In this document: one piece after another, positions 26,441 through 56,659 of the stretch
How the letters are laid out: each line of letters begins with the position of its first letter
How positions within the stretch are numbered: the stretch's first letter is position 1
NCBI RefSeq assembly: GCF_011492945.1
Contig: NZ_CP045119.1
Location: 3,906,001 to 3,970,000 of the forward strand
Direction of reading: 5' to 3'
DNA length: 64,000 bases
Source of the DNA: Rubrobacter tropicus
Lineage (GTDB): Bacteria > Actinomycetota > Rubrobacteria > Rubrobacterales > Rubrobacteraceae
Program-made: the position numbers and the translations under genes
The notes under the pieces: generated by a model
Databases searched by the model: none
Told to the model about the DNA's origin: nothing
The model's input: the letters and a program-made list of their open reading frames with translations, nothing else

Positions 26441-26523
26441 CGCCTCGTCGAGCCTCCCACTTCCTGTTCGAAACCCGGGCCGATCTCGGTCCGCGTCGTC
26501 CGGTCAGACTTCTGCTAGGATAA

Positions 26524-26542
26524 TATTACCAAATCAGTAATA
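26524..26542. promoter_or_regulatory. Palindromic operator TATTAC-N7-GTAATA (site 1)
   Basis: Perfect 6+6 inverted repeat (N7 = CAAATCA) in the AT-rich gap between the divergent Rieske and small membrane protein genes, overlapping likely -10 sequence (TAATATTAT on the minus strand). One of eight similar sites in the window. Confidence 0.7.
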
Positions 26543-26645
26543 GACAAGTACGCCCGTTCCGGCGGCAGGTCGGCCCCGTGCCGAGCTCGGAGTCGGTGGA
26601 GGATCGGGCACGGAACGCGGGCGAGATCTCCAAGGAAGGCCACCG

Positions 26646-29842: not shown

Positions 29843-29860
29843 GGGCTTACCTCCCGAAGC

Positions 29861-30640
29861 TCATTCGACGCGCCGGCTCTGCTCCACCCCGGGAGTCGTC
29901 TTCCCCGACTTCCGCGCCCTCTCGCGGGTCAGGGTCGCCTGGGGGTTGGAGCTGCGGTACTGGACGGGGCTGCGGCGCAGGTAGCCTAAAGGTACGCTCC
30001 AGGCATGCACCAGGCTGGAGAAGGGCCAAAGGGCGAAGAGTAAGAAGGCCGAGAGGGTGTGAAGCTGGAAAATCAGGGGCGCCTCGACCATCAGCTCGGG
30101 CTGCGGGGAGAAATAGAGGAGGCTGCGGAACCAGGGGCCGATGGTGTCCCGGTACTCGAACTCCTCCTGTAGCTCGTACTGGCTGACGTACACTCGGTAA
30201 CCGATGGTGGCGGCCATACCCAGCAGGATCACCACCAACAGCAAGGCATCCGTCACGAACTTGATCGTCTCCGTGTTGCTCCTGATGCGCCCGATAAACC
30301 AGCGGCGGAGATTCAGCAGCAGGATGTCGATCAGGGCGACGACCCCGACCACCGAACCGGCCCACAGCGAGAGCAGATGGTAGTCGTGGTCCGAGACCCC
30401 CATCGCTCTGTAGACCTCTATGGGTACGAGCAGGCCCATGACGTGACCGCCGAAGACGAAGAGCAGCCCCCAGTGGAGGAGTAAGACGCCCCACATCAGT
30501 ATCCGCCGCTCCAGGATCTGGCTGGACTTCGGCGTCCAGCCGTACTGGTCGTAGCGGTAACGGTAGACGTGCCCCAAGACGAAGGTCATCAGGGAGAGGT
30601 ACGGGAAGATTACCCACAGGAACTGCTCCCAGAGGTTCAA
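29861..30640 (-). CDS. narI: Respiratory nitrate reductase gamma subunit
   Basis: 259 residues, five membrane helices, cytochrome b subunit that takes electrons from menaquinol and passes them to NarH. Candidate haem ligands are the His residues in LHWGLLFVFGGHVMG and in FQLHTLSAFLLFALWPFSSLVHAW. The short basic tail after GYLRRSPVQYRSS is cytosolic. Its ATG overlaps the narJ stop by four bases (ATGA). Confidence 0.95.
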   Translation of the reverse strand: MNLWEQFLWVIFPYLSLMTFVLGHVYRYRYDQYGWTPKSSQILERRILMWGVLLLHWGLLFVFGGHVMGLLVPIEVYRAMGVSDHDYHLLSLWAGSVVGVVALIDILLLNLRRWFIGRIRSNTETIKFVTDALLLVVILLGMAATIGYRVYVSQYELQEEFEYRDTIGPWFRSLLYFSPQPELMVEAPLIFQLHTLSAFLLFALWPFSSLVHAWSVPLGYLRRSPVQYRSSNPQATLTRERARKSGKTTPGVEQSRRVE

Positions 30641-31287
30641 TGCTTCCTCCCGTGGAAGGTGACGTTGCTACCGGGGGAGCTACCGGCCAGGGTCCCACCC
30701 GCGGGCGAGTCGGCCGCGTAAGGTTCGAGACCGACGGTCTCCTGTGGCGGCCCCTGCACGATGAGCTTCCGCATCTCCATGACGGTCTCCTCGTCGAGCT
30801 CCGGCAGGAAGAAGCAGAGCGCCTCGAGGAGATGCGCGCAGGGGCTCCGGTCATGGTGCAGGGACCGACGGATCACCTCTATGGCCCCCCGGTGCCCGGC
30901 GAGCATCGTCAGCCCCTCCTCCGGGGCAACGGCGGCGAACTCCAGCACGAGCGGGAGGTAGTCGGGAAGCTCGGTCGTGTCGAGCGGGTAGCCGGCCCTC
31001 TCGTAGGCGGCCTTCATGTCCGCGAGGACCTGGCCGCACGCCCTCTGGTCGCCGTAGCGGTAGTAGCTCAGGTACAAACAACCCCGCCGGTTGAAATCGA
31101 AGGTGGCTGTGTACCTCTCCTGCAAACGCTGCGGGGACTCATTCTGCCAGTAAGCGAGGAACTCGATCATGGCGTTCCTGGCGGGGGAGTCCGGCAGCTC
31201 GCGCACGGCCCCGACCACCTCTTCGCGGGCTTCGAGTATGGCGGCGTCAGGGTAGCGCAGCAGGATGGAGAGCAGCTTGAAGATCAC
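30637..31287 (-). CDS. narJ: Nitrate reductase assembly chaperone
   Basis: 216 residues, all-helical NarJ/TorD family. YLSYYRYGDQRACGQVLADM and PDYLPLVLEFAA are the family's conserved stretches. It keeps NarGH in a competent state for molybdenum cofactor insertion and membrane docking. It overlaps both narH and narI by four bases, so the operon is tightly coupled. Confidence 0.93.
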   Translation of the reverse strand: MIFKLLSILLRYPDAAILEAREEVVGAVRELPDSPARNAMIEFLAYWQNESPQRLQERYTATFDFNRRGCLYLSYYRYGDQRACGQVLADMKAAYERAGYPLDTTELPDYLPLVLEFAAVAPEEGLTMLAGHRGAIEVIRRSLHHDRSPCAHLLEALCFFLPELDEETVMEMRKLIVQGPPQETVGLEPYAADSPAGGTLAGSSPGSNVTFHGRKH

Positions 31288-33002
31288 GCTCCAGCCCCCC
31301 TGGGCTTGAGGTGAAAGGACTGGAAGTCCTTTTTGCTCTTGATCGTGACACTGGTCGTTTGCGCTTGCCCGCCGACCTCCCTGGCCTTCTTCTCAAGCTC
31401 CACCTCCTTCTTGCTCTTGAACGTTACGTTGGGCGCCTGCACCCGCCCGCCGACCTTCTCGAGCTCCGCCTTCATCGCGTAGAAGGCTTCGTTGCGGCCT
31501 CCGCCGTTGGTACCGTGCCCGTCCGTGGCGGGCTCCGCGCAGCTTCCGGGGCCGCCGGCGAAGTCGAGGCCGCAGGAACCCTGCTGCTCGTCGAGCTCGT
31601 GGGCGAGTTCCTTGTGGGCCAGCGGGATGACGTAGCGGTCCTCGTACTTGGCGATGGCGAGCAGGCGGTACATGTCCTCGATCTCCCGCGGCGTCATGCC
31701 GACGGAGGCGGCGATGTCAGCCTCGGACGCGCCGGAGATGTTCTTCTCGCGCATGTAGCCGCGCATCGCGGCGAGCCGCTTGAGGACGTGCCGGACCACC
31801 TCCTCGTCGCCGGCGGAGAGCAGGTTAGCGAGGTACTGGATCGGTATCCTCAAATCGTCTATCGCCGGAAAGACGTCGTCGGGGTCGGCCTCAGAGCCCT
31901 CGCCCTCGACGAAGCCCATCACCGGCGAGAGCGGCGGCACGTACCAGACCATCGGGAGGGTACGGAACTCCGGGTGCAGCGGCAGCGCGATCCCCCACTC
32001 TATCGCCAGCGGGTAGATCGGGGACCGCTGCGCGGCCTCGATCCAGTCGTCCGGTATCCCGTCGAAGCGCGCCTGCTCGACCACCGCCGGATCCTTCGGA
32101 TCCAGGAACACCGACCGCTGCGCCTCCAGGAGGTCTTTGTCGTCGGGCACGGAGGCGGCCTCTTCTACCCGGTCGGCGTCGTAGAGGACGAGCCCGATGT
32201 AGCGCAGACGTCCGACGCAAGTCTCAGAGCAGATGGTCGGCTGGCCAGCCTCGATGCGCGGGTAGCAGAGTGTGCACTTCTCGGCCTTGCCAGAGTCCCA
32301 ATTGAAGTAGACCTTCTTGTAAGGGCAGCCGGAAACGCAGTAACGCCACCCCCGGCACTGCTCCTGGTCCACGAGCACGATGCCGTCCTCCTCGCGCTTG
32401 TACATCGCTCCGGAGGGGCACGACGCCACACAGGACGGGTTGAGGCAGTGCTCGCAGATGCGCGGCAGGTACGCCATGAAGACCTTCTCGTACTCGAAGC
32501 GAACCGATTCCTCCAGCTCGCCCCGGATGTTCGGGTCGAAGCGGGCGGTTTCGGGGGCGCCGGCGAGGTCGTCCTCCCAGTTGGGTCCCCACTCGAGCTC
32601 CATCGGCTCGCCGGAGAGCTGCGAGATGGGCTGCGCGACGGGCTGGTGCTCCGAGAGCTTCGCCTTGGTGAGGGTCTCGTAGTCGTAGGTCCACGGCTCG
32701 TAGAAGTCGTCTATGGAGGGGAGGTCGGGGTTGTAGAAGAGGTTGGCGAGTTTACGGAGCTTGCCGCCGGCCTTGAGCTCGAGCTTGCCGTTCTTGCCTA
32801 GAGTCCAGCCGCCCTTCCACTTCTCCTGGTCTTCCCACTGCTTCGGGTAGCCGACGCCTGGCTTGGTCTCGACGTCGTTCCACCACATGTACTCGGCGCC
32901 CTCGCGGTTGGTCCAGACGTTCTTGCACGTCACGCTGCACGTGTGGCAGCCGATACATTTGTCCAGGTTCATCACCATGGCGATCTGCGCTTTTATGCGC
33001 AC
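31284..33002 (-). CDS. narH: Respiratory nitrate reductase beta subunit
   Basis: 572 residues. Four Fe-S clusters are supported by CIGCHTCSVTCKNVW, CEHCLNPSCVASCPSG, CRGWRYCVSGCPYKK and CTLCYPRIEAGQPTICSETC; the Trp in CRGW is the usual 3Fe-4S marker. It passes electrons from NarI to NarG on the membrane's inner face. The protein is about 60 residues longer than E. coli NarH. The extra C-terminal tail holds two similar copies of a motif (VGGRVQAPNVTFKSKKE and VGGQAQTTSVTIKSKKD). Confidence 0.96.
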   Translation of the reverse strand: MRIKAQIAMVMNLDKCIGCHTCSVTCKNVWTNREGAEYMWWNDVETKPGVGYPKQWEDQEKWKGGWTLGKNGKLELKAGGKLRKLANLFYNPDLPSIDDFYEPWTYDYETLTKAKLSEHQPVAQPISQLSGEPMELEWGPNWEDDLAGAPETARFDPNIRGELEESVRFEYEKVFMAYLPRICEHCLNPSCVASCPSGAMYKREEDGIVLVDQEQCRGWRYCVSGCPYKKVYFNWDSGKAEKCTLCYPRIEAGQPTICSETCVGRLRYIGLVLYDADRVEEAASVPDDKDLLEAQRSVFLDPKDPAVVEQARFDGIPDDWIEAAQRSPIYPLAIEWGIALPLHPEFRTLPMVWYVPPLSPVMGFVEGEGSEADPDDVFPAIDDLRIPIQYLANLLSAGDEEVVRHVLKRLAAMRGYMREKNISGASEADIAASVGMTPREIEDMYRLLAIAKYEDRYVIPLAHKELAHELDEQQGSCGLDFAGGPGSCAEPATDGHGTNGGGRNEAFYAMKAELEKVGGRVQAPNVTFKSKKEVELEKKAREVGGQAQTTSVTIKSKKDFQSFHLKPRGAGA

Positions 33003-36000
33003 TAGTACTCGACCTCCTTCAGGCGCTTGCGGATCACGGTCAGCTCGTCGCGCTGCGACCCCGTGGGACCGTAGTAGTTGAAGCCGTAGGAGAGCTGGGC
33101 GTAGCCCCCGATCATGTGCGTCGGCTTGACGTAGATCTTGGTGAGCGAGTTCTCCGTGCCGCCGCGCGTTCCGGATAGCTCCGTCAGCGGCACGTTCAGG
33201 TGCCGGTCCTGGGAGTGGTACATGATCGAGGTCCCCTCCGGGATGCGATGGGAGACGACGGCCCTAGCCGAGACTACCCCGTTCCGATTGAAAGCCTCCA
33301 GCCAGTCGTTGTCCTTGACACCTATCTTCTCCGCGTCGCGGTCGCTGATCCAGATGACCGGTCCGCCCCTAAACAGGGTGAGCATCCTCAGGTTGTCCTG
33401 GAACTCGGAGTGGATGGACCACTTGGAGTGCGGCGTGAGGTACTTGAGGACGACCTCGGAGCGGCCCTCCTCGCCCGAGGTGAGGTCGCCGAGGTGCTTG
33501 GCGAGCCTGAGGGGCGGACGGTAGATCGGCAACCCTTCGCCGTACTCGAGCATCCACTCGTGGTCCACGTAGAACTGTTGCCGCCCAGTGAGCGTGCGCC
33601 ACGGGATCGACCGGTCTACGTTGATGGTGAACGGGGAGTAGCGGCGCGTGCGGCTCTCGGTGCCCGACCACTCGGGGGAGGCGATCACCTTGCGCGGCTG
33701 GGTCGTGATGTCGGCGAAGGTGATGAGCTCCTCGCCCCGCTCCTCGGAGAGGTCGGCCAACTTCACGCCGGTGCGCTTCTCCATCTGCTTGAAGCCCTCG
33801 ACCGAGAGCCGGCCGTTGGTCGTCCCGGAGAGAGCAAGTATCGCCTCGCAGACCTGATCCGCACGCGCGATGGACGGACGTCCGTCCCCGGCGCCGCCAC
33901 GAACGGTCCCGTTCTTCTTTCCGAGGTACTCGATCTCCGGCACGGGCTTCCACAGGTTGCCCTTGGCCCCGATGCCAACTTCCTCGATCGCAGGGCCCAG
34001 AGCTTTCATCTTCTCGGCGATGGCCCCGTAGTCGCGTTCGATCACAACCAGTTTCGGCATCGTCTTGCCGGGGATGGGCTCGCACTCGCCCTTCTTCCAG
34101 TCGAGCACCCTCCCCGAGGGCTGGGCCAGCTCGTCGGGGCTGTCGTGCATCAGGGGTACGGCGAGCAGGTCTTTCCTGACCCCCAGGTGCTTCTTCCCGA
34201 GTTTGGAGAACGCTTCGGCAACGTAGTTGAAGATGTCCCAGTCGCTCTTGGCCTCCCAGGGAGGCGTTATCGCGGGGTTGAATGGGTGGACGAACGGGTG
34301 CATGTCCGTGGAGGAGATATCGTGCTTCTCGTACCAGGTCGCGGTCGGCAGGACTATGTCCGAGTACAGTGACGACCCGTTCTTGCGGAAGTCTATCGTC
34401 GTTAGCAGGTCTAGCTTGCCCTCCGGCGCCTCCTCCCGCCAGACTACCTCTTCCGGACGCATCCCTTCGGGCATCTCTTCGCTGCGCACCGCCGCGTCGG
34501 GCACGCCGAGGAGGTGCTTGAGGAAGAACTCGTGGCCCTTGGCCGACGACCCCAGCAGGTTCGAGCGCCACAGGGTCAGCACGCGCGGGAAGTTCTCCGG
34601 CGCGTCCGGGTCCTCGGCGGCGAAGCGCAAGCGACCCGCCTTCAGCTCCCGGACGACGTACTCCTTCACGTCGATCCCCTCGCGCTCGGCCTCGGCCGTG
34701 ATCTCCAGCGGGTTGCGGTTGAAACCGGGGAAGGACGGCAGCCAACCAAGCCGGGCCGCCAGGGCGTTGCAGTCGGCGAAGTGCTTGCCGGCCAGCTTCC
34801 CCTTGCCAAGAGTGGTGACCAACTCGTCGGCCGCGAACGTCTCGTAGCGCCACTGGTTCGTGGCCAGGTACCAGAGAGGGGTGCCGGCCATGTGGCGGGT
34901 GGGCCTCGCCCAGTCGAAGGCGAAGGCTATCGTGGACCAGCCGGTTATGGGCCGCACCTTCTCCTGGCCGACGTAGTGCGCCCAGCCGCCGCCGTTCTTG
35001 CCCTGGCAGCCGCATAACAGGACCAACGTGAGCATGGCGCGGTAGATCTGGTCGGAGTGGTACCAGTGGTTCGTCCCGGCGCCCATGATGATCATGGACC
35101 GCCCCTCCGTCCGCTCGGCGTTGCGGGCGAACTCGCGCGCGATGCGTACGGTCCTTCCGGCGTCCACCCCGGTGACCTCTTCTTGCCAGGCCGGCGTGTA
35201 GGGTTCGGGATCGTCGTACCCCTCGGGCCACGCGCCCGGCAACCCCTCCCGTCCCACGCCAAACTGGGCGAGGAGCAAGTCGAAGACGGTCGTGACGAGG
35301 TGCCCGCCGACGCGCCTCACCGGCACCCCGCGCCTGAGCACGCCGCCGCTCTCCGTCTCACCCTCGTCGAAGCGCGGGAGGTCCAGCTCCACGAGCTCGT
35401 CGTGCCTTCCCAGCAAGCTAAGAGCGGGCTCTACCGCGCCGAGCTCCAGGTTCCACCGACCCTCGCCTTCGGCGCCGTACTTGAAGCCCATCGAGCCGTC
35501 CGGCACGACGGGCTCGCCCGTCTTCGCGTCGATAAGGGCGGTCTTCCACTCGGCGTTCTCGGAGGTCTCGCCGAGGTCGGCCGCGTGCAGAAAGCGGTCG
35601 GTGACGTAAGCGCCATCGCGCTCGCGCAGGGTGACGAGCATCGGCAGGTCCGTGTACTTCTTTGCGTAGTCCACGAAATATGGGACCTGGCGGTCGACGT
35701 AGAATTCCTTGAGGATGACGTGGCCCATCGCCATCGCCAGGGCGCCGTCGGTGCCGGGTTGGACCGGGAGCCAGTGGTCGGCGAACTTGGTGTGATCCGA
35801 GTAGTCCGGGCTCACGACCACCGTCTTCTGGCCGTTGTAGCGGGCCTCGGTCATGAAGTGGGCGTCGGGGGTGCGGGTGATGGGGACGTTCGAACCCCAC
35901 ATCATCAGGTACGAGGCGTTCCACCAGTCGGCCGACTCGGGCACGTCGGTCTGGTCGCCCCAGATCTGGGGCGAGCTGGGCGGCAGGTCCGCGTACCAGT

Positions 36001-36664
36001 CGTAGAAGCTCGGGATTATCCCCCCGATCAAGGACATGAAGCGCGAGCCGCCAGAGTAGGAGACCATGCTCATCGCCGGGATCGGCGAGAAGCCGATGAC
36101 ACGATCCGGTCCGTACTTCTTTATCGTGTACACGTGCGCGGCGGCCATGATCTCCGCGACCTCCGGCCACGAGACGCGTACGAGCCCACCCTTGCCCCTG
36201 ACGGACTTGTATGCCCTCGCCTTCTCCGGATCCTCGACTATGGAGGCCCATGCTTCCACGGGATCACCGGTCTGTGAGAGCGCCTCGCGGTACAGCTCCA
36301 TCAGGACACCCCGGACGTAGGGGTACTTTATGCGGATCGGGGAGTAGGTGTACCAGGAGAAGGACGCGCCCCTCGGGCACCCACGCGGCTCGTACTCGGG
36401 CATGTCGGGGCCATTGGACGGGTAGTCGGTCTGCTGGGACTCCCAGGTGATGATGCCGTCCTTGACGTAGACCTTCCACGAGCACGAGCCCGTGCAGTTC
36501 ACGCCGTGGGTGGAGCGCACGATCTTGTCGTGCTGCCACCGCTGGCGGTAGGCGTGCTCCCACTCCCTATCGCGGGCGTTGATCTCGCTGTGACCGTCGC
36601 CGTGCTTCTCCCCCCTGCGGAAGTACTGCAAATTCCTCAGCAGGGGGTTGGTGGTCTTCCCCAC
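33002..36664 (-). CDS. narG: Respiratory nitrate reductase alpha subunit
   Basis: 1220 residues from the GTG that overlaps the narK stop (TAGTG). The N-terminal Fe-S ligands follow the NarG pattern: His53, Cys57, Cys61, Cys96 (THGVNCTGSCSW ... PRGCPRG). The Mo-bis-MGD domains follow, with VVVSPDYSDHTKFADHW in the active-site region. No Tat signal is visible, so the enzyme should face the cytosol and need imported nitrate. The frame stays open to 36742, but that would overlap narK by 79 bases. Confidence 0.96.
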   Translation of the reverse strand: MGKTTNPLLRNLQYFRRGEKHGDGHSEINARDREWEHAYRQRWQHDKIVRSTHGVNCTGSCSWKVYVKDGIITWESQQTDYPSNGPDMPEYEPRGCPRGASFSWYTYSPIRIKYPYVRGVLMELYREALSQTGDPVEAWASIVEDPEKARAYKSVRGKGGLVRVSWPEVAEIMAAAHVYTIKKYGPDRVIGFSPIPAMSMVSYSGGSRFMSLIGGIIPSFYDWYADLPPSSPQIWGDQTDVPESADWWNASYLMMWGSNVPITRTPDAHFMTEARYNGQKTVVVSPDYSDHTKFADHWLPVQPGTDGALAMAMGHVILKEFYVDRQVPYFVDYAKKYTDLPMLVTLRERDGAYVTDRFLHAADLGETSENAEWKTALIDAKTGEPVVPDGSMGFKYGAEGEGRWNLELGAVEPALSLLGRHDELVELDLPRFDEGETESGGVLRRGVPVRRVGGHLVTTVFDLLLAQFGVGREGLPGAWPEGYDDPEPYTPAWQEEVTGVDAGRTVRIAREFARNAERTEGRSMIIMGAGTNHWYHSDQIYRAMLTLVLLCGCQGKNGGGWAHYVGQEKVRPITGWSTIAFAFDWARPTRHMAGTPLWYLATNQWRYETFAADELVTTLGKGKLAGKHFADCNALAARLGWLPSFPGFNRNPLEITAEAEREGIDVKEYVVRELKAGRLRFAAEDPDAPENFPRVLTLWRSNLLGSSAKGHEFFLKHLLGVPDAAVRSEEMPEGMRPEEVVWREEAPEGKLDLLTTIDFRKNGSSLYSDIVLPTATWYEKHDISSTDMHPFVHPFNPAITPPWEAKSDWDIFNYVAEAFSKLGKKHLGVRKDLLAVPLMHDSPDELAQPSGRVLDWKKGECEPIPGKTMPKLVVIERDYGAIAEKMKALGPAIEEVGIGAKGNLWKPVPEIEYLGKKNGTVRGGAGDGRPSIARADQVCEAILALSGTTNGRLSVEGFKQMEKRTGVKLADLSEERGEELITFADITTQPRKVIASPEWSGTESRTRRYSPFTINVDRSIPWRTLTGRQQFYVDHEWMLEYGEGLPIYRPPLRLAKHLGDLTSGEEGRSEVVLKYLTPHSKWSIHSEFQDNLRMLTLFRGGPVIWISDRDAEKIGVKDNDWLEAFNRNGVVSARAVVSHRIPEGTSIMYHSQDRHLNVPLTELSGTRGGTENSLTKIYVKPTHMIGGYAQLSYGFNYYGPTGSQRDELTVIRKRLKEVEY

Positions 36665-37899
36665 TACCTCACTCTCCCTTCCGTAGCCGCGCCTCCGCTG
36701 GCCGGCCTCCTCGTGACGTACAACAGATTGACCAGTAGACACCCGACGGCGAAGAGTGCCAGCAGAACAAAGCCTATGGCGTAGGAGCCGGTCGCGTCTC
36801 GCACCACGCCGAGGACCAGAGGCGGGAAGAATCCGCCCAGTCCGCCGGCCGCCCCGACGACGCCCGTGACCGCGCCGGTCTTGCCCGGGTAGTACTCGGC
36901 CACCAGCTTGAAGACGGCCCCGTTCCCGAGCCCGAAGAGTACCGCGCTAGTGAGGGCGCCTATCGTGAACAGGACTATGCCGGGCTCGAAGCTGAGGATG
37001 AAGGCCATAAGGGGGAGAATGGCAAAGCTGATCATGAGGGTACGCGGGCCTCCGATGCGGTCGGCGAGCCAGCCGCCCACCGGACGCGCCAGCACCGCCA
37101 GCACCACGAACCCGGCGGCCCGCAGCCCCGCGCCGGTCTGGGTGTACCCGAAGAGGTCGACCAGGAGCTTGGGCAGGTAGATGCCCATGGCCACGAACCC
37201 GCCGAAGGTAAGAAAGTAGAAGAGGCTCAACACCCAGGGCATCGCCTCTTGCCGAAACAACGCGACGCCCGCCGCAAGAGACGGCCTCGGTCCCGTGGAA
37301 GGCGCATCCCGGCCCACCACCCAGAAGATGACCGCCATGATGATCAGCGGGACGATGAACACCCAGAACGCCCACTGCCAGCCGTAAAAGGCTGCTATCG
37401 CCGGGGCGGTGTACGCGGCGATGGCGGTCCCGATAGTGCCGATACCGTAGATCCCCAAAGCCAGTCCCTGCATGTGCGGTGGGAACCACTTGGAGACGAA
37501 GGGAACCCCGACGGCGAATGAGCTACCGGCCAATCCCAGGAAAAAGCCCCAGAAGAGCAACCCTGCAAAAGAGCCGCCCAAGATGCCGACAAAGAGCACC
37601 GGCACGATCAGAATGAGCATCAGCACGGGGAAGACCATCCGCCCACCGAACCGGTCCGTAAGCAATCCCATCGGGATGCGAAACAGCGCCCCCAACAGCA
37701 TCGGCGTCGCGATGACGACGCTGATCTGGGTGCTCGACAGCCGGTACAGCTCCTGAAACTGCGGCGCCAACGGCGCTACGAGCCCCCACACCGAGAAGCA
37801 CAACGCGAAGGCCAGGGTGGAGAGGACCAGCGCCCGGTATGCTCCGGGCCGCACCTCGTCCGTCCCGCCTATGGTTTCCCGAAGGTTCGTCCCCGCCAT
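36664..37899 (-). CDS. narK: Nitrate/nitrite transporter
   Basis: 411 residues, 12-helix MFS transporter. Conserved NNP features are RIPMGLLTDRFGGRMVF, GLAGSSFAVGVPFVSKWFP (nitrate signature 1) and GNGAVFKLVAEYYPGKTGAVTGVVGAAGGLGGFF (signature 2 region, split here for reading). It imports nitrate or exchanges nitrite for the cytosolic NarGHI downstream. ATG with GGAGGTAGAC. A 14-bp palindrome lies 135 bases before the start. Confidence 0.94.
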   Translation of the reverse strand: MAGTNLRETIGGTDEVRPGAYRALVLSTLAFALCFSVWGLVAPLAPQFQELYRLSSTQISVVIATPMLLGALFRIPMGLLTDRFGGRMVFPVLMLILIVPVLFVGILGGSFAGLLFWGFFLGLAGSSFAVGVPFVSKWFPPHMQGLALGIYGIGTIGTAIAAYTAPAIAAFYGWQWAFWVFIVPLIIMAVIFWVVGRDAPSTGPRPSLAAGVALFRQEAMPWVLSLFYFLTFGGFVAMGIYLPKLLVDLFGYTQTGAGLRAAGFVVLAVLARPVGGWLADRIGGPRTLMISFAILPLMAFILSFEPGIVLFTIGALTSAVLFGLGNGAVFKLVAEYYPGKTGAVTGVVGAAGGLGGFFPPLVLGVVRDATGSYAIGFVLLALFAVGCLLVNLLYVTRRPASGGAATEGRVR

Positions 37900-38034
37900 G
37901 TCTACCTCCGCGCTCCGTCCGTGCTCACCGTCACCTCGCCCGATCCTGGCGGTTCGCTCCCAGGTCCCGCTCCCAAAATCCTTATGATCCCGAAAGGAGC
38001 CCGTCCCGACGACGTCAAAATGGACCGTTCGACA

Positions 38035-38048
38035 GGTCAAATTTGACC
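38035..38048. promoter_or_regulatory. 14-bp palindrome upstream of narK
   Basis: GGTCAAATTTGACC is perfectly palindromic and lies between the PAS-LuxR gene stop and the narK start, the natural place for a nar operator. Its GGTCAA-N2-TTGACC form also occurs at 19443-19456. Confidence 0.45.
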
Positions 38049-38064
38049 AAGCGATCCCCGAGCA

Positions 38065-38730
38065 TTACCCGGCCAGCAGGCCCGTCTTCCGGGCTTCGGC
38101 GAGTACCTCTATCTGCGAGTGCATCCCAAACGCTCGCAACAGGCCCCGGACGTGGCCGCGGACGGTGGCCTCCGCGATGCCCAGTTCTCGACCCACGGCT
38201 CTGGCGGACATGCCTTCGGAAAGCAGCCTCAGCACCTCCAACTGACGGGAGGTGAGCTCCGGCGTGTTCCCGGCCGTGTCGAAAGCATCCCCGTTGGACC
38301 CTCGGACCAGAGCCCGGGCCATCTCCAGCGCATCGTGCATCCGTTGGGAATCGCGCAGCAGGTTGATCAGGTACGGCCCCTCTTCGGCGTCCACGTTCAG
38401 CACCGTGACGCTCACCCATCGCTTCTTGCCCGTGGGAGAGCACAGGCGCACTTCGTGAGAAGGAACCGACTGCCCGGCCCGGGCCAACCTCATCGCGGAG
38501 CACCCACAGTGGCAGAAGGGCGTACCGTCCTCCCTCTCGCCCGCCACTGTCTCGTGGAGAGGTTTGCCCACCACCTCCGCGCCAGCGAGCCCTGTGAGAA
38601 ACTCGGTCCGGGGATCCCAGTAGACGACGCGATGGTCGGGCCCAACCACGAACACCGCGTCGTCCGTGCGGGCCCCGGCAAGAGCCTCGACCGCCGCGGG
38701 AAGTCCATTCCCACAGTTACCCGCCATCAT
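38065..38730 (-). CDS. PAS-LuxR transcription regulator with cysteine cluster
   Basis: 221 residues. A PAS domain (about 15-120) is followed by a LuxR helix-turn-helix (about 155-215, LTSRQLEVLRLLSEGMSARAV). Inside the PAS is FCHCGCSAM, and two more cysteines are at NCGNG and RLCSPTG, enough to bind an Fe-S cluster or metal. There is no receiver domain, so it would sense directly. It overlaps the CopD-like gene by four bases and precedes narK on the same strand, so control of nitrate respiration is likely but inferred. Confidence 0.8.
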   Translation of the reverse strand: MMAGNCGNGLPAAVEALAGARTDDAVFVVGPDHRVVYWDPRTEFLTGLAGAEVVGKPLHETVAGEREDGTPFCHCGCSAMRLARAGQSVPSHEVRLCSPTGKKRWVSVTVLNVDAEEGPYLINLLRDSQRMHDALEMARALVRGSNGDAFDTAGNTPELTSRQLEVLRLLSEGMSARAVGRELGIAEATVRGHVRGLLRAFGMHSQIEVLAEARKTGLLAG

Positions 38731-39203
38731 CCCTGACCGTTCACGGCGAGCACCACGAGGACCACGCTGACGAGAAGGTCCAGCATCGAGACCCGGAAAG
38801 ACGTCCTCTGTAGTAAACGTCTCTGTCCGGCCAGCGAGCGGACCTCCTCGGCGTCGGACGCCTCACGCTCGGCCTCCGCGAGCCTTCTCAGACGCCGCCC
38901 GAAATACGCCCCGTGCGCCGCGACGAGCCCGAAGAGCAACACGAGCAGGACGTACTCGGCGTAGAGCACGGTCCCGAAACCTCCGAGCGCGCCGTCCAGA
39001 ACGGCGAAGACGAGCAGCAGCGCCAGGTTGGCCGTCCCCACCCTGGCGTACTGACGCCCGATGGCCGACCTTACCCCCACCCGCTCGGCCTCGCCCCACT
39101 TCATCGCCTTCAGGGCCGGCGAGACGACGGTCGTCGTGAACACCACTCCGCCGAGCCAGACCCCGGCGAGTAGAACGTGAAGCGTGTGAACGATCGCGTC
39201 CAA
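38727..39203 (-). CDS. CopD-like membrane protein
   Basis: 158 residues, four helices. The first helix has HTLHVLLAGVWLGGVVF, the paired-His/Trp pattern of CopD and DUF2269/4149-like proteins. A basic/acidic coiled stretch (RRLRRLAEAEREASDAEEV) separates helices three and four. TTG is the start because GAGGAGG lies eight bases upstream. It leads the transcript toward the PAS-LuxR regulator and nar genes and has a conserved palindrome 44 bases upstream. Confidence 0.65.
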   Translation of the reverse strand: MDAIVHTLHVLLAGVWLGGVVFTTTVVSPALKAMKWGEAERVGVRSAIGRQYARVGTANLALLLVFAVLDGALGGFGTVLYAEYVLLVLLFGLVAAHGAYFGRRLRRLAEAEREASDAEEVRSLAGQRRLLQRTSFRVSMLDLLVSVVLVVLAVNGQG

Positions 39204-39246
39204 ATACCGACCTCCTCTACACAGCACCTTCTCCGAACACAGAAAA

Positions 39247-39265
39247 TATTACCATTATAGTAATA
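39247..39265. promoter_or_regulatory. Palindromic operator TATTAC-N7-GTAATA (site 2)
   Basis: Perfect 6+6 palindrome (N7 = CATTATA) 44 bases before the CopD-like TTG start, embedded in very AT-rich sequence that probably includes the promoter. Confidence 0.72.
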
Positions 39266-39418
39266 GTATATCCAGAGGCGGTTGTGGAGAGAGACACAAC
39301 CCGGTGAGAGATGCTGGGCCGACGCCGGACCTTCGGGTAGAAGAGATTTCGGGAGACGTTTGACGCGGATCACTAACCCAGGTCACATCCGCGGCCCAAA
39401 ACCCTTGATCGAGCAACG

Positions 39419-39436
39419 CTTACTATAGTAGTAATA
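39419..39436. promoter_or_regulatory. Palindromic operator, near-exact (site 3)
   Basis: CTTAC-N7-GTAATA, one mismatch in the left half, 34 bases before the ATG of the first cupin gene. A further GTAAT lies at 39437-39441. Confidence 0.6.
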
Positions 39437-39469
39437 GTAATCTGACAGGGATCTTCGTAGGAGGTAGTG

Positions 39470-39902: not shown

Positions 39903-40352
39903 CTATGCCCGGGCCTCCTCCTGACCCCCGGAGGGGCCGGCCCTCGATGCGGTCCGTGAGACGAACTCCGAGAGCGTCTGGGCCTCGAGATAGTCCAGGA
40001 TGGCCTCCTGCCCCTCCTCCCAGGCCCCGTGCATGGCGCAGGGTGCTCCCTCGCCGCAGGCCCTGTCCTGCATAATGCACTTGGTGACCTCGAAGGGACC
40101 CTCCATCGCCACCACGGCGTCCCTCAGCGTTATCTCCTCGGGCGAGCGGGCCAGTCGCGAGCCCCCGCCCCGCCCCTCCTGACTCGCCACCAGCCCGGCG
40201 CGCGAGAGCCCGGCCAAAACGCGGGCCAGCAGGCGGCGCGGAATCTTCGCCTCGGCGGAGATGGTGTCGGCGGTCGCCATCTCCCCGATCTGCGCCAGGT
40301 AGACCAGCGCTCTCAAACCGTAGCGCCCCTCGCTGCTAAGCTCCAGCCTCAA
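39903..40352 (-). CDS. Rrf2-family regulator (NsrR/IscR-like)
   Basis: 149 residues. Winged helix at the N-terminus (LSSEGRYGLRALVYLAQ, then KIPRRLLARVLAGLSRAGLV and the wing EGRGGGSRLAR). Three cysteines, C-x6-C-x5-C (KCIMQDRACGEGAPC), are placed where NsrR/IscR bind a 2Fe-2S or 4Fe-4S cluster; the first spacing is one residue longer than the usual C-x5-C. It would sense NO, O2 or Fe-S status. TTG follows AAAGGAGCG. A variant of the shared palindrome lies 47 bases upstream, which suggests autoregulation. Confidence 0.88.
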   Translation of the reverse strand: MRLELSSEGRYGLRALVYLAQIGEMATADTISAEAKIPRRLLARVLAGLSRAGLVASQEGRGGGSRLARSPEEITLRDAVVAMEGPFEVTKCIMQDRACGEGAPCAMHGAWEEGQEAILDYLEAQTLSEFVSRTASRAGPSGGQEEARA

Positions 40353-40398
40353 GGCCCACGCTCCTTTCGGACGGTCTTTCCAATCCGTTCGCTTAACT

Positions 40399-40415
40399 GT
40401 TACCATTTAAGTATA
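40399..40415. promoter_or_regulatory. Palindromic operator, imperfect (site 4)
   Basis: GTTAC-N7-GTATA (N7 = CATTTAA) upstream of the Rrf2 gene. Four of five bases pair in the TTAC/GTA core; weaker than the other copies, as is common for autoregulatory sites. Confidence 0.5.
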
Positions 40416-40448
40416 GATTATGCCATTCCGGAGGACACTCGGCATTCG

Positions 40449-41171
40449 TCATTGACGCCCGATCTCCGCCAGCCTCTCGGGATCCAGCAGGACGATGCGT
40501 CCTCCCTCCATCTCCAGGATTCCCTTCTTGCGCAAGCCGATCACCGCGGCGGTTACCGACTCGCGGGTAGAGGCGACCATCGTCGCCAGGTCGCCGCGGG
40601 TGAGCCGGAGCCCGATTGCGACCCCGACATCGGTCGTCTCTCCGAACTTCCGGCCCAGGATCGGCAGCAGCTTCGCCAGCCGGACTTCGGTCCTGCGGGG
40701 CAAGAGACACCCCAACAACTCCTCATACTCGACCAGCCTCGTTTCCAGGAGCGTCGCCATCTCAAGCGCCACCTCCGGCCGCCGGCGTATCGCACGCTCC
40801 ACCAATGCCCCGGGTACCTTGATCGCCTCACAGTCGGTTACGGCCCCCGCCGAGAACCGGCTCTTACGCCCGTCGGCGAACGCCGAGAAGCCGAAACACT
40901 CCCATGGCCCAAGCAACAGAAAGGTGGCGTCCTTGCTCCCTACGTAACCCGCGTAGCCGACGAAGAGTTTCGCGACACCTCCAGTGAGCACGTAGAGCGT
41001 CCTTCCCGCATCGTCCCCACGGTAGATCTCCTCCCCGCCATCGTAGGACCGACGCACGAGCGGCGTCCCCGTCTCGCGCAGCGCCGCCAGCAGCCTGCGA
41101 CACCCTCGCCCCTCCGGCGCGGCGTATTCTCCAAGCGCCACCGCAGCCCCCGAAAGCCTCATCATCGGCAC
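40449..41171 (-). CDS. Crp/Fnr-family regulator 1
   Basis: 240 residues: cyclic-nucleotide-binding-like beta-roll (about 35-140), dimer helix, C-terminal helix-turn-helix (LTRGDLATMVASTRESVTAAVIGLRKKG). Cysteines are at RGCRR, WECFG, TDCEA and LLGCLLP, not the FNR N-terminal set, so an Fe-S cluster cannot be asserted. The recognition helix STRESV is the type that reads TGTGA- or TTGAT-like half sites. Divergent from cupin 2, with a shared palindrome between. GTG with GGGAG seven bases upstream. Confidence 0.85.
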   Translation of the reverse strand: MPMMRLSGAAVALGEYAAPEGRGCRRLLAALRETGTPLVRRSYDGGEEIYRGDDAGRTLYVLTGGVAKLFVGYAGYVGSKDATFLLLGPWECFGFSAFADGRKSRFSAGAVTDCEAIKVPGALVERAIRRRPEVALEMATLLETRLVEYEELLGCLLPRRTEVRLAKLLPILGRKFGETTDVGVAIGLRLTRGDLATMVASTRESVTAAVIGLRKKGILEMEGGRIVLLDPERLAEIGRQ

Positions 41172-41209
41172 CGATCCGCTCCCGTCCCACTTTCTCCTTA
41201 TCCTTCTAC

Positions 41210-41228
41210 TATGACGATTTTTGTAATA
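41210..41228. promoter_or_regulatory. Palindromic operator, near-exact (site 5)
   Basis: TATGAC-N7-GTAATA (N7 = GATTTTT), one mismatch, in the divergent gap between Crp/Fnr 1 and cupin 2. It lies 39 bases from the Crp start and 63 from the cupin start. Confidence 0.62.
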
Positions 41229-41290
41229 TTATAACGGTCGATCGAGTAACTCACCGTCTGCGCCGGCAGACCGACGGAAGGAGAAGGCAG

Positions 41291-46404: not shown

Positions 46405-47079
46405 TCAGCGGTCGCCGGCCTCGACCAGGCCGGTCTCGTAGGCGAGGACGACGGCCTGGACCCGGTCGCGGAGGCCGAGCTTGGCCAGTATCCGGCCCAC
46501 GTGCGTCTTGACGGTGCCCTCCGATAAGACCAGCTCCCGGGCGATCTCCGCGTTCGACAATCCCCGGGCCACCAGCCGCAGCACCTCGTGCTCCCGCGGC
46601 GTCAGCTCCTCGAGCCGGTGCCCTTCCGGGACGGGGCGCCGTTCGCGCGCGACGGGCGGGTCGCTCGCGAAGCGGTCCAAAAGACGGCGCGTGGTGCTGG
46701 GCGCGACGACCGCATCGCCGAGGTGCACGTGGGTGATCGCCGAGACCAGGTCGTTTAGGGGCGCGTCTTTGACGAGAAAACCGCTCGCGCCGACCCGGAG
46801 CGCGTCGTAGGCGTATTCGTCGAGGTCGAAGGTCGTCAGGATCAGCACTCGCGGGCCGTCACCGGCGCAGATCCGCCGCGTCGCCTCCACCCCGCTCATC
46901 CGCGGCATCCGGACGTCCATGAGCACTACGTCCGCCCGCACCGTCTCCAGCAGCTCCAGCGCGGTGTCGCCATCGTCGGCCTCACCGACGACCTCGATCT
47001 CCGGGCGGGATTCGAGGATCATCCGGAAGCCCGCCCGGATCATCTCCTGGTCGTCGACCAGCACGACGCGAATAGTCAA
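46405..47079 (-). CDS. NarL/LuxR-type response regulator
   Basis: 224 residues. Receiver domain with acidic pocket VLVDDQEMIRAGF and phospho-Asp in VVLMDVRMPRMSG; C-terminal LuxR helix-turn-helix (LTPREHEVLRLVARGLSNAEIA). It overlaps the sensor kinase gene by four bases and likely drives the ABC operon that follows after 195 bases. Confidence 0.92.
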   Translation of the reverse strand: MTIRVVLVDDQEMIRAGFRMILESRPEIEVVGEADDGDTALELLETVRADVVLMDVRMPRMSGVEATRRICAGDGPRVLILTTFDLDEYAYDALRVGASGFLVKDAPLNDLVSAITHVHLGDAVVAPSTTRRLLDRFASDPPVARERRPVPEGHRLEELTPREHEVLRLVARGLSNAEIARELVLSEGTVKTHVGRILAKLGLRDRVQAVVLAYETGLVEAGDR

Positions 47080-49419: not shown

Positions 49420-49653
49420 CTACTCGAAGTAGTTGGCGGCCTTGGCGATGTAGCTCTCCTGGTCGTCCGGGACCTCGTCCTCGGGGTAGATCGCCTCGAC
49501 CGGACACTCCGGCTCGCAGGCGCCGCAGTCGATGCACTCCTCGGGGTTGATCATGAACTGATCGCCTGCGTCGTAGATGCAATCGACCGGGCACACCTCC
49601 ACGCACGACTGGTCCTTCGTGCCGATGCACGGCTCCGTGATTACGTAGGTCAC
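49420..49653 (-). CDS. 7Fe/8Fe-type ferredoxin
   Basis: 77 residues. First motif C-x7-C-x3-CP ([18 protein letters not shown]), second [19 protein letters not shown], as in FdxA-type 7Fe ferredoxins. Cytosolic electron carrier. A conserved palindrome lies 33 bases upstream, so it is probably expressed with the Fe-S repair and cupin genes. Confidence 0.93.
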
Positions 49654-49685
49654 GCTTTCTCCTCTCTCGGAACGCCTCCAGCAAC

Positions 49686-49704
49686 TATTACTAATTTTGT
49701 AATT
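49686..49704. promoter_or_regulatory. Palindromic operator TATTAC-N7-GTAAT (site 6)
   Basis: Perfect 5+5 core (N7 = TAATTTT), 33 bases before the ferredoxin start. Confidence 0.72.
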
Positions 49705-49803
49705 TTAACTGTACCCTACCCCACCGATGCCCGAAAGCCGATGTTGACCGACGTCACATACGCGCGTGATCCCGTACCTCGCGGCTCGTAGTCCTCGTGC
49801 CTG

Positions 49804-50545: not shown

Positions 50546-51973
50546 CTAGGGCGGGAGCCTGCTCTCGCCCATCAGGTAGAGGTCGGCCTGGCGGGCGGCC
50601 TTGCGGCCCTCGGCTATGGCCCACACGATCAGAGACGCACCCCTCCTGGCGTCCCCGGCGACGAACACCCCAGGCACGCCGGTCCCGTAACGGTCGTCCG
50701 AGGCGATGGCCCCGCGCTCGCCAAACTCCAGCTTCAGGTCCTCGAGAAGCCGGTCGCGCACCGGTCCGGTGAAGCCGATGGCGAGCAAGACCAGGTCCGC
50801 GTCCACCTCGAACTCCGTACCGGGGCGGCGTCTGACCCGGCCATCGGAACTTCTCTCGACCTCCACCGCGTGCATCTTCTCCACGCGACCGCCCCCACCG
50901 GAAAAGCCCGTAACTGTCACGTTCCACCCTCGTTCGCCGCCCTCCTCGTGGACCGGGTAGGTGTGCAGAACGAAGGGCCAATCCGGCCACCGGAGCGGGT
51001 CGGGGGGCTCCGGCGGCCTCGGGCCGTGGGTGAGCACCTTGATGGAAGCGGCCCCCTCGCGGTTGGCGTTGCCCAGGCAGTCGGCGCTGGTGTCACCGCC
51101 GCCGAGGACGATCACCCGCTTGCCCCTGGCGCTGATCTCCTTCCCCTCCACCGGCAGGCCTGCTACGCGCCGGTTCTGCTGCACCAGGTAGTCCATCGCC
51201 GGGTGGATGCCGTCGAACTCGCGACCCGGCAGATCAATGTCGGCGCCCTGCAAGGCACCGACGGCCAGAACGATCGCGCCGAACTCACACCCGAGGTCGT
51301 CGGTCGTCGGGTTCTCGCCGACGTGGGCGTTCGCGCGGAACTCGACGCCCTCCTCTTCGAGCTGCGCGAGGCGCCGATCCACCACCCGCTTCTCCATCTT
51401 GTAGTCCGGGATGCCGTACCGGAGGAGACCGCCTATGCGATCGTCCTTCTCAAAGACGACCACCGTATGCCCGGCCCGGTTGAGCTGCTGGGCCGCAGCC
51501 AGGCCCGCAGGGCCGCTGCCCACGACCGCCACCCTCTTGCCGGTCCTCTTCTCCGGCGGCGGGGGCCTGGGGACCACCCAGCCCTCCTCGAAAGCCCTCT
51601 CTATGATCGAGCGCTCTATCTCCTTTATGGTCACCGGCCCGTCGTTTATGGAGAGGACGCACGCCGCCTCGCACGGCGCCGGGCAGAGTATCCCGGTGAA
51701 CTCGGGGAAGTTATTGGTCCTGTGGAGGCGGTCTATGGCCTGCTTCCAGTGGTCCTTGTAGACGAAGTGGTTCCAGTCCGGGATCAGGTTGTTCACTGGA
51801 CAGCCGGTGTTGCAGAACGGCACCCCGCAGTCCATGCAGCGCGAGGCCTGATCCCGCAGTTCCTTCTCCGGCATCGGCTCGTAGACCCACCGGTAATCCC
51901 GGACGCGCTCGGCGATGGGACGCTTGGGGATCTGCCCGCGCCTGTGCTTCAGGAAGCCTTTGGGGTCCCCCAC
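50546..51973 (-). CDS. gltD: Glutamate synthase small subunit-like oxidoreductase
   Basis: 475 residues. N-terminal Fe-S helical domain (ASRCMDCGVPFCNTGCPVNN and CPAPCEAAC), FAD fold VAVVGSGPAGLAAAQQLNRAG, NAD(P) fold VIVLGGGDTSADCLG, and GVFVAGDARRGASLIVWAI. It supplies electrons to GltB for glutamate formation. No gltB lies in the window, so it may instead serve another partner, perhaps one of the ferredoxins here. Confidence 0.92.
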   Translation of the reverse strand: MGDPKGFLKHRRGQIPKRPIAERVRDYRWVYEPMPEKELRDQASRCMDCGVPFCNTGCPVNNLIPDWNHFVYKDHWKQAIDRLHRTNNFPEFTGILCPAPCEAACVLSINDGPVTIKEIERSIIERAFEEGWVVPRPPPPEKRTGKRVAVVGSGPAGLAAAQQLNRAGHTVVVFEKDDRIGGLLRYGIPDYKMEKRVVDRRLAQLEEEGVEFRANAHVGENPTTDDLGCEFGAIVLAVGALQGADIDLPGREFDGIHPAMDYLVQQNRRVAGLPVEGKEISARGKRVIVLGGGDTSADCLGNANREGAASIKVLTHGPRPPEPPDPLRWPDWPFVLHTYPVHEEGGERGWNVTVTGFSGGGGRVEKMHAVEVERSSDGRVRRRPGTEFEVDADLVLLAIGFTGPVRDRLLEDLKLEFGERGAIASDDRYGTGVPGVFVAGDARRGASLIVWAIAEGRKAARQADLYLMGESRLPP

Positions 51974-52383: not shown

Positions 52384-53133
52384 TCACCGCCTCGGCAAGG
52401 CGGCCTCGGCGGCCATGGCCTTGGGGAAGAGAACGTTGTTCTCTTCGTGGACGTGCAGGTGCAGCCTCCTCTCGAGCCCGGCCAGGCCCTCGAGCATCGT
52501 CCGGTGGGCGTCACAAGCATCGGCAGGCGGCTCGAAACCCGCTGCCAGCTCGCGAAGCTTCGCCAGCGCTTGAGCGATCGCTTCGTGCTCGGCCGTCATC
52601 ACGCCTATGGGGTTCTGCACGGTGCGCCAGTAGAAGTCCGGTCGAACGCTGGCGGCATCCAGCTCCCGGCACATGGGGAAGAGCACCTCCTCTTCCTTTA
52701 TCCGGTGTTCCTCCAGGTCGAGCTTGAGGCTGCCGAAGACCCGGCGTAGCTCGACCAGCTCGGGACGGCGATCCCCGTGTACGCTTGCGACCCTGTTCAC
52801 CAACGACTCGAGCCGGGGCAGAGCATCCTCCAGGTAGCCGTAGTGGGATTGCAGGATGTGGTCCGCAAGCTCCGTCGCGGAAACCTTCGACCAGTCGATC
52901 TGGTCTTCCGGCTCGGCATTGCAGGTCTCGAGATCCCGCAGCACCGCCCGCGGATCGAGGCCCCTCCCAACGCACGCCTCGCCGAGCGTCTCGTGCGCCC
53001 GGCAGCAGTAACGGATCCCGAACCGCTCGAAGACACCTACCGCGCCGGGACGCTCGATCATCACCCGGCCGACGGTGGCGTCCTCCGAGATCAGGACCGC
53101 AGCCCTCCTTCTCCGAAATAACCTGTTCATCAT
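52384..53133 (-). CDS. ric: Di-iron Fe-S cluster repair protein 2
   Basis: 249 residues. N-terminal ScdA_N (DUF542) region with IRYCCRAHETLGEACVGRG, then a hemerythrin-like domain (HILQSHYGYLEDALPRLE, EEHRIKEEEVLFP, TAEHEAIAQAL, HVHEENNVLFPKA). It repairs Fe-S clusters after nitrosative or oxidative damage. In place of YCCGG it reads YCCRA. Paralogue of the next gene upstream, 44 bases away. Confidence 0.92.
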   Translation of the reverse strand: MMNRLFRRRRAAVLISEDATVGRVMIERPGAVGVFERFGIRYCCRAHETLGEACVGRGLDPRAVLRDLETCNAEPEDQIDWSKVSATELADHILQSHYGYLEDALPRLESLVNRVASVHGDRRPELVELRRVFGSLKLDLEEHRIKEEEVLFPMCRELDAASVRPDFYWRTVQNPIGVMTAEHEAIAQALAKLRELAAGFEPPADACDAHRTMLEGLAGLERRLHLHVHEENNVLFPKAMAAEAALPRR

Positions 53134-53177
53134 TGCCTAGCTCCAGCATATTCGCCCGGTAGGTTGCGCCTAAAACG

Positions 53178-53891
53178 TCAGGTCTTCGCTAGCGCGGCCT
53201 CGGCAGCTGCCGCCTTCGGGAAGAGGATGCTGTTCTCCTTGAAGATGTGGTAGTGGGTGTCGCGCTCTAACTCGGCCAGGCCGTCGAGCATCGCCCGGTA
53301 GGTGTTGCAGGCGTCCTTCGGAAGATCGTAGTCCCACGTCAGCTCCCGGATCCGGCCCAGTCCGCCGCCAGCCTCGACGTGCTCCCGCATCATCGCCGCG
53401 ATGGGATTCTTGACGGTCCCGAAGCGAAGGTCCGGCATGGTCTCCGCCCCCTCAAGCTCCCTGCACGCCGGGAAGAGCATCCGCTCCTCCTTCGCCGTGT
53501 GCTCCTCCAGCTCCACGCGCAGCCCCTCGAATACCTCACGCAATTCCAGCAGCTCCGGATGGGCGCCCCCGTGAACGTTCGCCACTTTATCGACCAGGAA
53601 GCTCAGGCGAGGCAACTCCTCCTTGAGATAGGCGTGGTGGGTCTCTACGATGTGGTCCACCAGCTCGCCCATGCCCATGCTCGTCAGCCCGGCCTCGTCC
53701 TCAGTCTGCCCGGCCTCCCGGCGCTCCAGCTCCGCGATCACCTCACCCGGGTCCAGCCCTGCACCGGCGCAGGCCTCGGCCAGCGGCGCCCCTCCTCCGC
53801 AGCAGTAGTCTATGCCCAGGGCCTCGAACACCCGCGAGCGGCTCGGCCGCTCGACGACGAGGTCACTGACGGTCGTCTCCACAGAAAGCAT
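53178..53891 (-). CDS. ric: Di-iron Fe-S cluster repair protein 1
   Basis: 237 residues. Full ScdA_N signature IDYCCGGGAPLAEACAGAG, then hemerythrin-like helices with His/Glu ligands (HIVETHHAYLKEELPRL, EEHTAKEERMLFP, MREHVEAGG, YHIFKENSILFPKA). Same role as its paralogue. ATG follows GAGAGGAGAG. A perfect palindrome of the shared set lies 42 bases upstream; it heads a likely transcript through the second RIC gene to gltD and DUF59. Confidence 0.94.
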   Translation of the reverse strand: MLSVETTVSDLVVERPSRSRVFEALGIDYCCGGGAPLAEACAGAGLDPGEVIAELERREAGQTEDEAGLTSMGMGELVDHIVETHHAYLKEELPRLSFLVDKVANVHGGAHPELLELREVFEGLRVELEEHTAKEERMLFPACRELEGAETMPDLRFGTVKNPIAAMMREHVEAGGGLGRIRELTWDYDLPKDACNTYRAMLDGLAELERDTHYHIFKENSILFPKAAAAEAALAKT

Positions 53892-53932
53892 CTACTCTCT
53901 CCTCTCGCTCAAGACCTCGACGGCCCAGTTAC

Positions 53933-53951
53933 TATTACTAAAATTGTAATT
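53933..53951. promoter_or_regulatory. Palindromic operator TATTAC-N7-GTAAT (site 7)
   Basis: Perfect 5+5 core (N7 = TAAAATT) upstream of the first RIC gene, in very AT-rich sequence. Confidence 0.72.
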
Positions 53952-53999
53952 GTATATTCGCACGTTCGGGCCACGTCCGCAAGGCGTTTTGTGAAGGGT

Positions 54000-54988: not shown

Positions 54989-55759
54989 TTACGGGCGGCC
55001 GTGAGGTTCGTCACGCCCCGAGCGACGGCGCAGGAGATCGGGCTCGAGGATGGTGAGACAGTCGCCTTCGAGGGAAATGATGCCGCGCTTGACGAGCGCC
55101 GACAGAGCGCGGCTCACGCTCTCCCGCGGGGCTCCCAGAGACTCGGCCATCTCGGTACGGGTCAGCGGCAGCTCGAGCGTTATGCGACCTCCGGGGCCGA
55201 CACGCCCCCACTCCTCGGCGATCCGCAGGAGCAAGGCGGCCGTGCTCTGCGGGACGGAGCGGTAGGAGAGCTCGCTCCAGAGCCTCTCCTGCAAATCGCG
55301 GGATGAGCCGCACAGTTCCCGGATCGCCGCAAGCATAGCTTCCGGCGAGATCCGTAGCCGCGCCATGAGTACGCGGCGGGGGAAGACGGCCAACTCCGAG
55401 TCCGGCAGGGTCATGGCCGAGGCCGGGAGCGGCCTCCCGTCGAGGGCGGGGACGACCGCGAAGGCGCGTCCGGGCTCTATAACCTCCAGTATCCGCTGGC
55501 GACCGCTCGGCAGATCCCGGTACACCTTGACCGCCCCGGAGACCACCCCGTAGAGCGCCGTCGGCTCGTCGCCTTCGTGGAAGATGGCCGTCCGGCGCGG
55601 GTAGCTCACGATCCGCGCGCTCCGGACCAACGCATCCCGCGCATCTTCCGGAAGCCCCTGCAATACCGGCGCCCACGCGACAAACTCCACGAGCCGCGCG
55701 TCGAGGTCCGGCTCACCTGGCGGCCTCAGACGCGTCCTCTCCGCCAGGACCTCAACCAT
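54989..55759 (-). CDS. Crp/Fnr-family regulator 2
   Basis: 256 residues. Cyclic-nucleotide-like roll (EGDEPTALYGVVSGAVKVYR ... GRAFAVVPAL) and helix-turn-helix LTRTEMAESLGAPRESVSRALSALVKRG. Only a few cysteines and no FNR cluster set, so it may sense haem-NO or a nucleotide. It follows the methyltransferase gene by 35 bases and is likely on the same transcript, below palindrome 8. Confidence 0.88.
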   Translation of the reverse strand: MVEVLAERTRLRPPGEPDLDARLVEFVAWAPVLQGLPEDARDALVRSARIVSYPRRTAIFHEGDEPTALYGVVSGAVKVYRDLPSGRQRILEVIEPGRAFAVVPALDGRPLPASAMTLPDSELAVFPRRVLMARLRISPEAMLAAIRELCGSSRDLQERLWSELSYRSVPQSTAALLLRIAEEWGRVGPGGRITLELPLTRTEMAESLGAPRESVSRALSALVKRGIISLEGDCLTILEPDLLRRRSGRDEPHGRP

Positions 55760-55794
55760 CGGGTCCCCCGCCGTTTGCAGCTCCCTGTTCCCGC

Positions 55795-56613: not shown

Positions 56614-56640
56614 AGCCAACGCCCCCCAAATCTCTTTTAT

Positions 56641-56659
56641 TATTACTATTTTTGTAATA
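56641..56659. promoter_or_regulatory. Palindromic operator TATTAC-N7-GTAATA (site 8)
   Basis: Perfect 6+6 (N7 = TATTTTT) in the divergent gap between the methyltransferase operon and the cupin 3-hemerythrin operon, so one site may control both. Confidence 0.75.

Follow-up and report, generated by a model that had tools for sequence, protein, structure and literature searches.

The rrf2 gene and its product

The stretch of DNA analysed here (64 000 nucleotides from Rubrobacter tropicus, referred to below as the window) carries an rrf2 gene on the reverse strand, probably at 39903–40352, with a Crp-type gene (40449–41171, reverse strand) directly upstream. A longer open reading frame (39903–40406, reverse strand, 167 amino acids) starts from an ATG at 40406, which lies within a palindrome upstream of rrf2. 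Most orthologues of the protein begin with MRLELSSEGRY or MKLELSSEGRY, and the matching position in the window is a TTG at 40352 with the Shine–Dalgarno sequence AAAGGAG ahead of it. Given the orthologue starts, the AAAGGAG and the location of the ATG inside the palindrome, the gene most likely spans 39903–40352 and its start is probably the TTG; the end at 40415 proposed in an earlier note on this DNA is therefore too long.

The protein is a member of the Rrf2 superfamily. It matches Pfam family PF02082 over the whole domain with 120.5 bits (cut-off 30) and TIGR00738 with 99 bits (cut-off 73.3). The Rrf2 wing motif Lx3Gx6Gx2GGx2L (PMC9338935) is found in the open reading frame as L67..G71..G78..G81-G82..L85. 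The predicted model has pLDDT values of 91–96 over residues 31–100 and its top PDB matches are all Rrf2 proteins; no Rfam family was found at the locus. The three cysteines pointed out in the earlier note are present as part of a Cys-x6-Cys-x5-Cys-x2-His arrangement that is invariant in 14 of 14 aligned sequences. The note was also correct that the C-x6-C spacing is one residue longer than in NsrR, because the cysteines of ScNsrR (Cys93, Cys99 and Cys105) are spaced C-x5-C-x5-C (PMC9338935).

The palindrome and its predicted targets

The palindrome is TATTAC-N7-GTAATA, and its core, ATTAC-N7-GTAAT, is conspicuous among spacers of 0–19. With at most one mismatch it occurs at six places in the 4.58 Mb genome, all of them inside the window and spread over about 30 kb of it, while the reversed control pattern occurs at none under the same tolerance. 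In 40 sites taken from other genomes and from a second nar locus, position −5 is A in 100% and position −4 is C in 95%, and the central bases vary. The copy before rrf2 (40392–40422) is a weak predicted operator, as the earlier note had it: it scores 12.7 bits with a matrix derived from the seven remaining window sites, and no unrelated position in the 64 kb exceeds 9.4 bits. Its centre (40407) lies 55 bp upstream of the TTG, a distance that resembles those seen for the other targets.

One predicted target is an operon on the reverse strand, DUF4149–PAS-LuxR–NarK–NarG–NarH–NarJ–NarI (29847–39227). Its predicted operator (39241–39271) is centred 29 bp before it, and a counterpart precedes DUF4149 in 12 genomes. 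Another predicted operator (39412–39442) is centred 40 bp before a cupin gene that starts at 39467 on the forward strand. The site at 41204–41234, scored by the matrix, falls in the divergent promoter of the Crp-type gene at 40449–41171, a likely target, and of a forward-strand cupin gene at 41291; a counterpart precedes homologues of this cupin in 11 genomes. Further along, a site at 49680–49710 is centred 42 bp before a ferredoxin gene (49420–49653, reverse strand) and has equivalents in genomes G026 and G028. A site at 53927–53957 is centred 51 bp before the RIC/ScdA gene (53178–53891, reverse strand), with counterparts before RIC in five genomes. Two more matrix sites lie before a forward-strand cupin gene at 56748 (56635–56665) and between genes for a Rieske protein (reverse strand) and a hypothetical protein (forward strand; 26518–26548).

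The RIC gene is the first of two tandem genes for iron–sulfur repair di-iron proteins (52384–53891, reverse strand). The first is an equivalog match to TIGR03652 and sits behind one of the strongest operators; the two are 49% identical. Between the ferredoxin and RIC genes is a glutamate-synthase small-subunit-like oxidoreductase (50546–51973; TIGR01317, 632 bits). The regulon genes also include a DUF59 Fe–S assembly protein and ferredoxins, and three different small cupins (39467, 41291 and 56748).

For most DUF4149, cupin, RIC, ferredoxin and Crp genes the centre of the site lies 24–57 bp before the start codon. Several of the window operators end only 10–30 bp before the Shine–Dalgarno region, which leaves no room for a promoter downstream; we infer that they overlap the promoter and hence that binding would repress. 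The predicted operator position suits a repressor.

Distribution of the protein and the palindrome

Site and gene were compared across 40 Rubrobacteria genomes, several of which are incomplete MAGs. An rrf2 orthologue is present in 15 of the 40 (64–76% identity; G014 has only a fragment, which lies at the end of a contig); the remaining matches are paralogues of about 26–34% identity only. Sites with at most one mismatch occur in 13 of the 15 orthologue-bearing genomes and sites at matrix level in all 15, and the co-occurrence of orthologue and one-mismatch site over the 40 genomes has a Fisher p of 2.8e-5. The earlier note had proposed this co-occurrence as a check and had named motif-bearing genomes without the orthologue as the result that would count against its suggestion. 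The 25 orthologue-free genomes hold six one-mismatch sites versus 15 matches to the reversed pattern, which is below the control rate. One of these genomes (G036, partly contaminated) has a 23-bit site on a GC-poor contig (C41:8320), where the surrounding DNA is 54% GC and the 3 kb locus holds no target gene.

Outside the genome of the window, nine of the 21 one-mismatch sites are no more than about 500 bp away from rrf2 (binomial p ∼1e-26). Sites adjoin the gene in G005, G011, G012, G017, G025, G026, G027, G028, G031 and G039; in six genomes they are 55–161 bp upstream, mostly between rrf2 and a divergent cupin gene. A de novo palindrome search near rrf2 in the other genomes ranked ATTAC-N7-GTAAT first, with a count equalled in three of 100 random placements. 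The sites of the 15 orthologue-bearing genomes either adjoin rrf2 or precede narK/narGHJI, DUF4149, cupin, RIC and ferredoxin genes.

Proximity to rrf2 is not needed for a site. In G015 and G016 (genus g9) the gene is 1.3–1.4 Mb from the nar/RIC cluster, which still carries sites, and no site is found at rrf2 itself. The nar genes and rrf2 are on separate contigs in G017, G026 and G028, and sites are again found at the nar cluster; the link between protein and site therefore acts in trans. NarG is encoded in 13 genomes, 12 of them with rrf2. The exception, G001, is the only genome with nar but without rrf2, and no site was found at its two nar operons (NarG 85% and 73% identical), with about 200 bp upstream covered for one of them. 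Similarly, no site above 12 bits was found at a cupin gene (78% identical) of G008, where rrf2 was not found (the genome is 75% complete). Conversely, rrf2 occurs without narG in G025, G031 and G035, and there sites remain upstream of cupin, DUF4149 or DsbA genes. The motif thus follows the protein and not its targets and, at the level of predicted sites, the two go together wherever the genes lie and whether or not nar is present.

Among 397 Actinomycetota genomes beyond the class no orthologue was found, only distant matches (G082 and G164; E ∼1e-31), and the loci examined in these two have no palindrome site. A search of contigs returned only records from Rubrobacter-type organisms (including Rubrobacter taiwanensis and Rubrobacter MAGs) or unclassified actinobacteria; the orthologue is present in R. 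taiwanensis.

Comparison with known Rrf2 and nar regulators

The closest parallel in targets and operator geometry is NsrR, the NO sensor, which has the same fold, three cysteines, an odd-centred operator of about 23 bp and targets of the RIC/ytfE type. In the complex of NsrR with hmpA1 the operator is 23 bp long, no bases are contacted in its central 7 bp and its outer minor grooves are relatively AT-rich (PMC9338935); the Rubrobacteria palindrome likewise has an odd centre and 7 central bp that are little conserved. The two systems also differ. Besides the C-x6-C in place of C-x5-C, the ScNsrR ligand Asp8 is replaced by Arg (by alignment offset), and the NsrR operator consensus gATGyAT-N5-ATrCATc (PMC1274295) has only A−8/T−7 and the odd centre in common with TATTAC-N7-GTAATA. 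The Rubrobacter protein also putatively controls narGHJI and cupins, and scores 54.2 bits against the NsrR equivalog model NF008240 (cut-off 182).

The putative ligand set instead resembles that of IscR. The third cysteine and the following histidine align (C-x2-H-x2-W), as does the GRY of helix 1, and the segment P-C-A-M-H corresponds to K-A-L-T-H of PDB entry 4hf2, in which the Ala is an engineered Cys position. IscR has one residue fewer between its first two cysteines. Its minor-groove Arg before the wing Gly is replaced in the Rubrobacter protein (E-G-R versus R-G-P), and the near-perfect sites found in the genome-wide pattern search are all in the window, with no isc/suf target seen. The IscR models TIGR02010 and NF008110 give 71.1 of 207.6 and 49.5 of 275 bits. 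RirA, CymR, RsrR and the Xanthomonas-type Suf regulator share the superfamily and fold and differ in their targets; the RirA, CymR and Suf regulator models give 52.8 of 193, 52 of 195 and 63.9 of 110.7 bits, respectively, and RsrR is not among the equivalog models hit. With scores so far below the NsrR, IscR, RirA, CymR and Suf regulator cut-offs, the protein can be filed under none of them. It appears NsrR-like in geometry and targets and IscR-like in ligand set. A parallel in function is ArnR of the corynebacteria, described as a novel regulator, an Fe–S protein that controls nar genes (narKGHJI) in the Actinomycetota (PMC12343034).

Proposed mechanism and alternatives

The best reading of these comparisons is a new Rrf2 subfamily, a putative Fe–S repressor of a regulon for nitrate respiration and NO damage. 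A dimer would bind TATTAC-N7-GTAATA and repress in trans narK–narGHJI with DUF4149, the small cupins, the RIC operon, the ferredoxin and the Crp gene and, weakly, its own gene. An Fe–S cluster would be held by Cys110, Cys117, Cys123 and probably His126 (numbering of the longer open reading frame). The cluster-bound form would be the repressing state and damage to the cluster would release the protein from DNA, most likely through NO that forms from nitrite while nitrate is respired. In other bacteria RIC/ytfE genes belong to the targets of NsrR, and YtfE is able to make NO from nitrite (PMC9052748); NO from nitrate respiration is thus plausible and the likeliest signal. We put the probability of the proposal at about 0.85.

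That the Rrf2 protein was the best candidate for the regulator had been suggested, by elimination, in the earlier note; the 40-genome comparison supports this, and the protein is very probably the reader of the palindrome before the genes for nitrate respiration and nitrosative damage in Rubrobacter-type bacteria. It is most improbable that a Crp/Fnr protein encoded in the window (40449–41171 or 54989–56026) is the reader. The gene at 40449 does follow a strong site and immediately precede rrf2, and in G015 and G016 the site cluster includes a related gene. However, a Crp protein of more than 55% identity is linked to the motif in G031 only, one of about 50% identity is present in almost every one of the 40 genomes, whether the motif is there or not, and the second protein (54989–56026) has no homologue at any site cluster. 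Their helices, given in the earlier note as STRESV and PRESV, respectively, are both present in the sequence, and SxRESV keeps the Arg–Glu pair that reads TGTGA. Crp/Fnr sites such as wTGTGAn6TCACAw and TTGACn4GTCAA have even spacers (PMC1274295), in contrast to N7. A role for the PAS-LuxR protein (38065–38730) or the LuxR response regulator (46405–47079) is more improbable still. The PAS-LuxR gene is part of the nar operon, and in other bacteria nar genes are controlled by LuxR proteins of the NarL type. The PAS-LuxR orthologue, however, is absent from the motif-bearing genomes G026, G031 and G035, whereas G029 and G034 have it and lack a site cluster; the response regulator has only remote homologues at site clusters, and sites for such regulators are usually even (7-2-7), unlike the odd-centred palindrome. 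Thus the distribution of neither the Crp nor the PAS-LuxR proteins over the 40 genomes follows the motif. The source genome encodes two further full-length Rrf2 proteins (C1:1318313 and 1044473; only 32–33% identity to the query), which were rejected as well; homologues of about 30% identity are also found in motif-free genomes.

Linkage and co-occurrence alone cannot prove binding, and an unlinked regulator with the distribution of rrf2 might be the reader, the Rrf2 protein being only a co-regulated neighbour. Other genes do share that distribution: cupin B co-occurs with rrf2 almost perfectly across the class, and the regulon cupin follows the motif nearly as well as rrf2 does, although it has no DNA-binding domain. 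We consider an unlinked reader very unlikely, as rrf2 encodes the sole DNA-binding protein found beside the sites in most motif-bearing genomes and the palindrome has the geometry of an Rrf2 operator. A different matter is the signal, the only point in which an IscR-like sensor of Fe–S status or O2 would depart from the proposed NO-released repressor. Such a sensor is possible, if somewhat doubtful: the Cys3-His arrangement is IscR-like, Asp8 of NsrR aligns with an invariant Arg in the orthologues, and the DUF59 protein and ferredoxins belong to the regulon; the nar and RIC genes, on the other hand, point towards nitrogen oxides, and the near-perfect sites of the genome are all in the window, with no recognized suf/isc operon among the genes scanned.

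A fuller reading seems reasonably likely from the sequences compared: a Rubrobacteria-specific Rrf2 subfamily, with its C-x6-C-x5-C-x2-H site and its own operator code, would be an Fe–S sensor that switches nitrate respiration and nitrosative repair jointly by repressing nitrate reductase, RIC and the cupins. A literature search found no paper mentioning Rubrobacter together with Rrf2, and the analysis ties a conserved operator to its probable reader in a class without Rrf2 work in the literature searched. It suggests that in Rubrobacteria nitrate reductase itself, besides NO detoxification, is under an Fe–S Rrf2 protein, places the uncharacterized small cupins and the membrane protein DUF4149 in a possible physiological setting, and supplies a gene list with exact predicted operators for testing.

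Additional loci

The G000 genome has a second nar operon (C1:2156000–2175000; NarG 87% identical), accompanied by a separate rrf2 paralogue (65%) and a copy of cupin B, and a 43-bit site lies between this rrf2 paralogue and narK. A third copy of cupin B (C1:3823565–3823929) appears to be broken into two overlapping pieces, one with an internal stop, and has no operator nearby. Small proteins that start MKRHPxLRxFSDDHHxGLV and have a hemerythrin-like look (L072:5620–6066, L077:3100–3654 and L083:1360–1878) adjoin cupin C in several genomes and may be members of the regulon.
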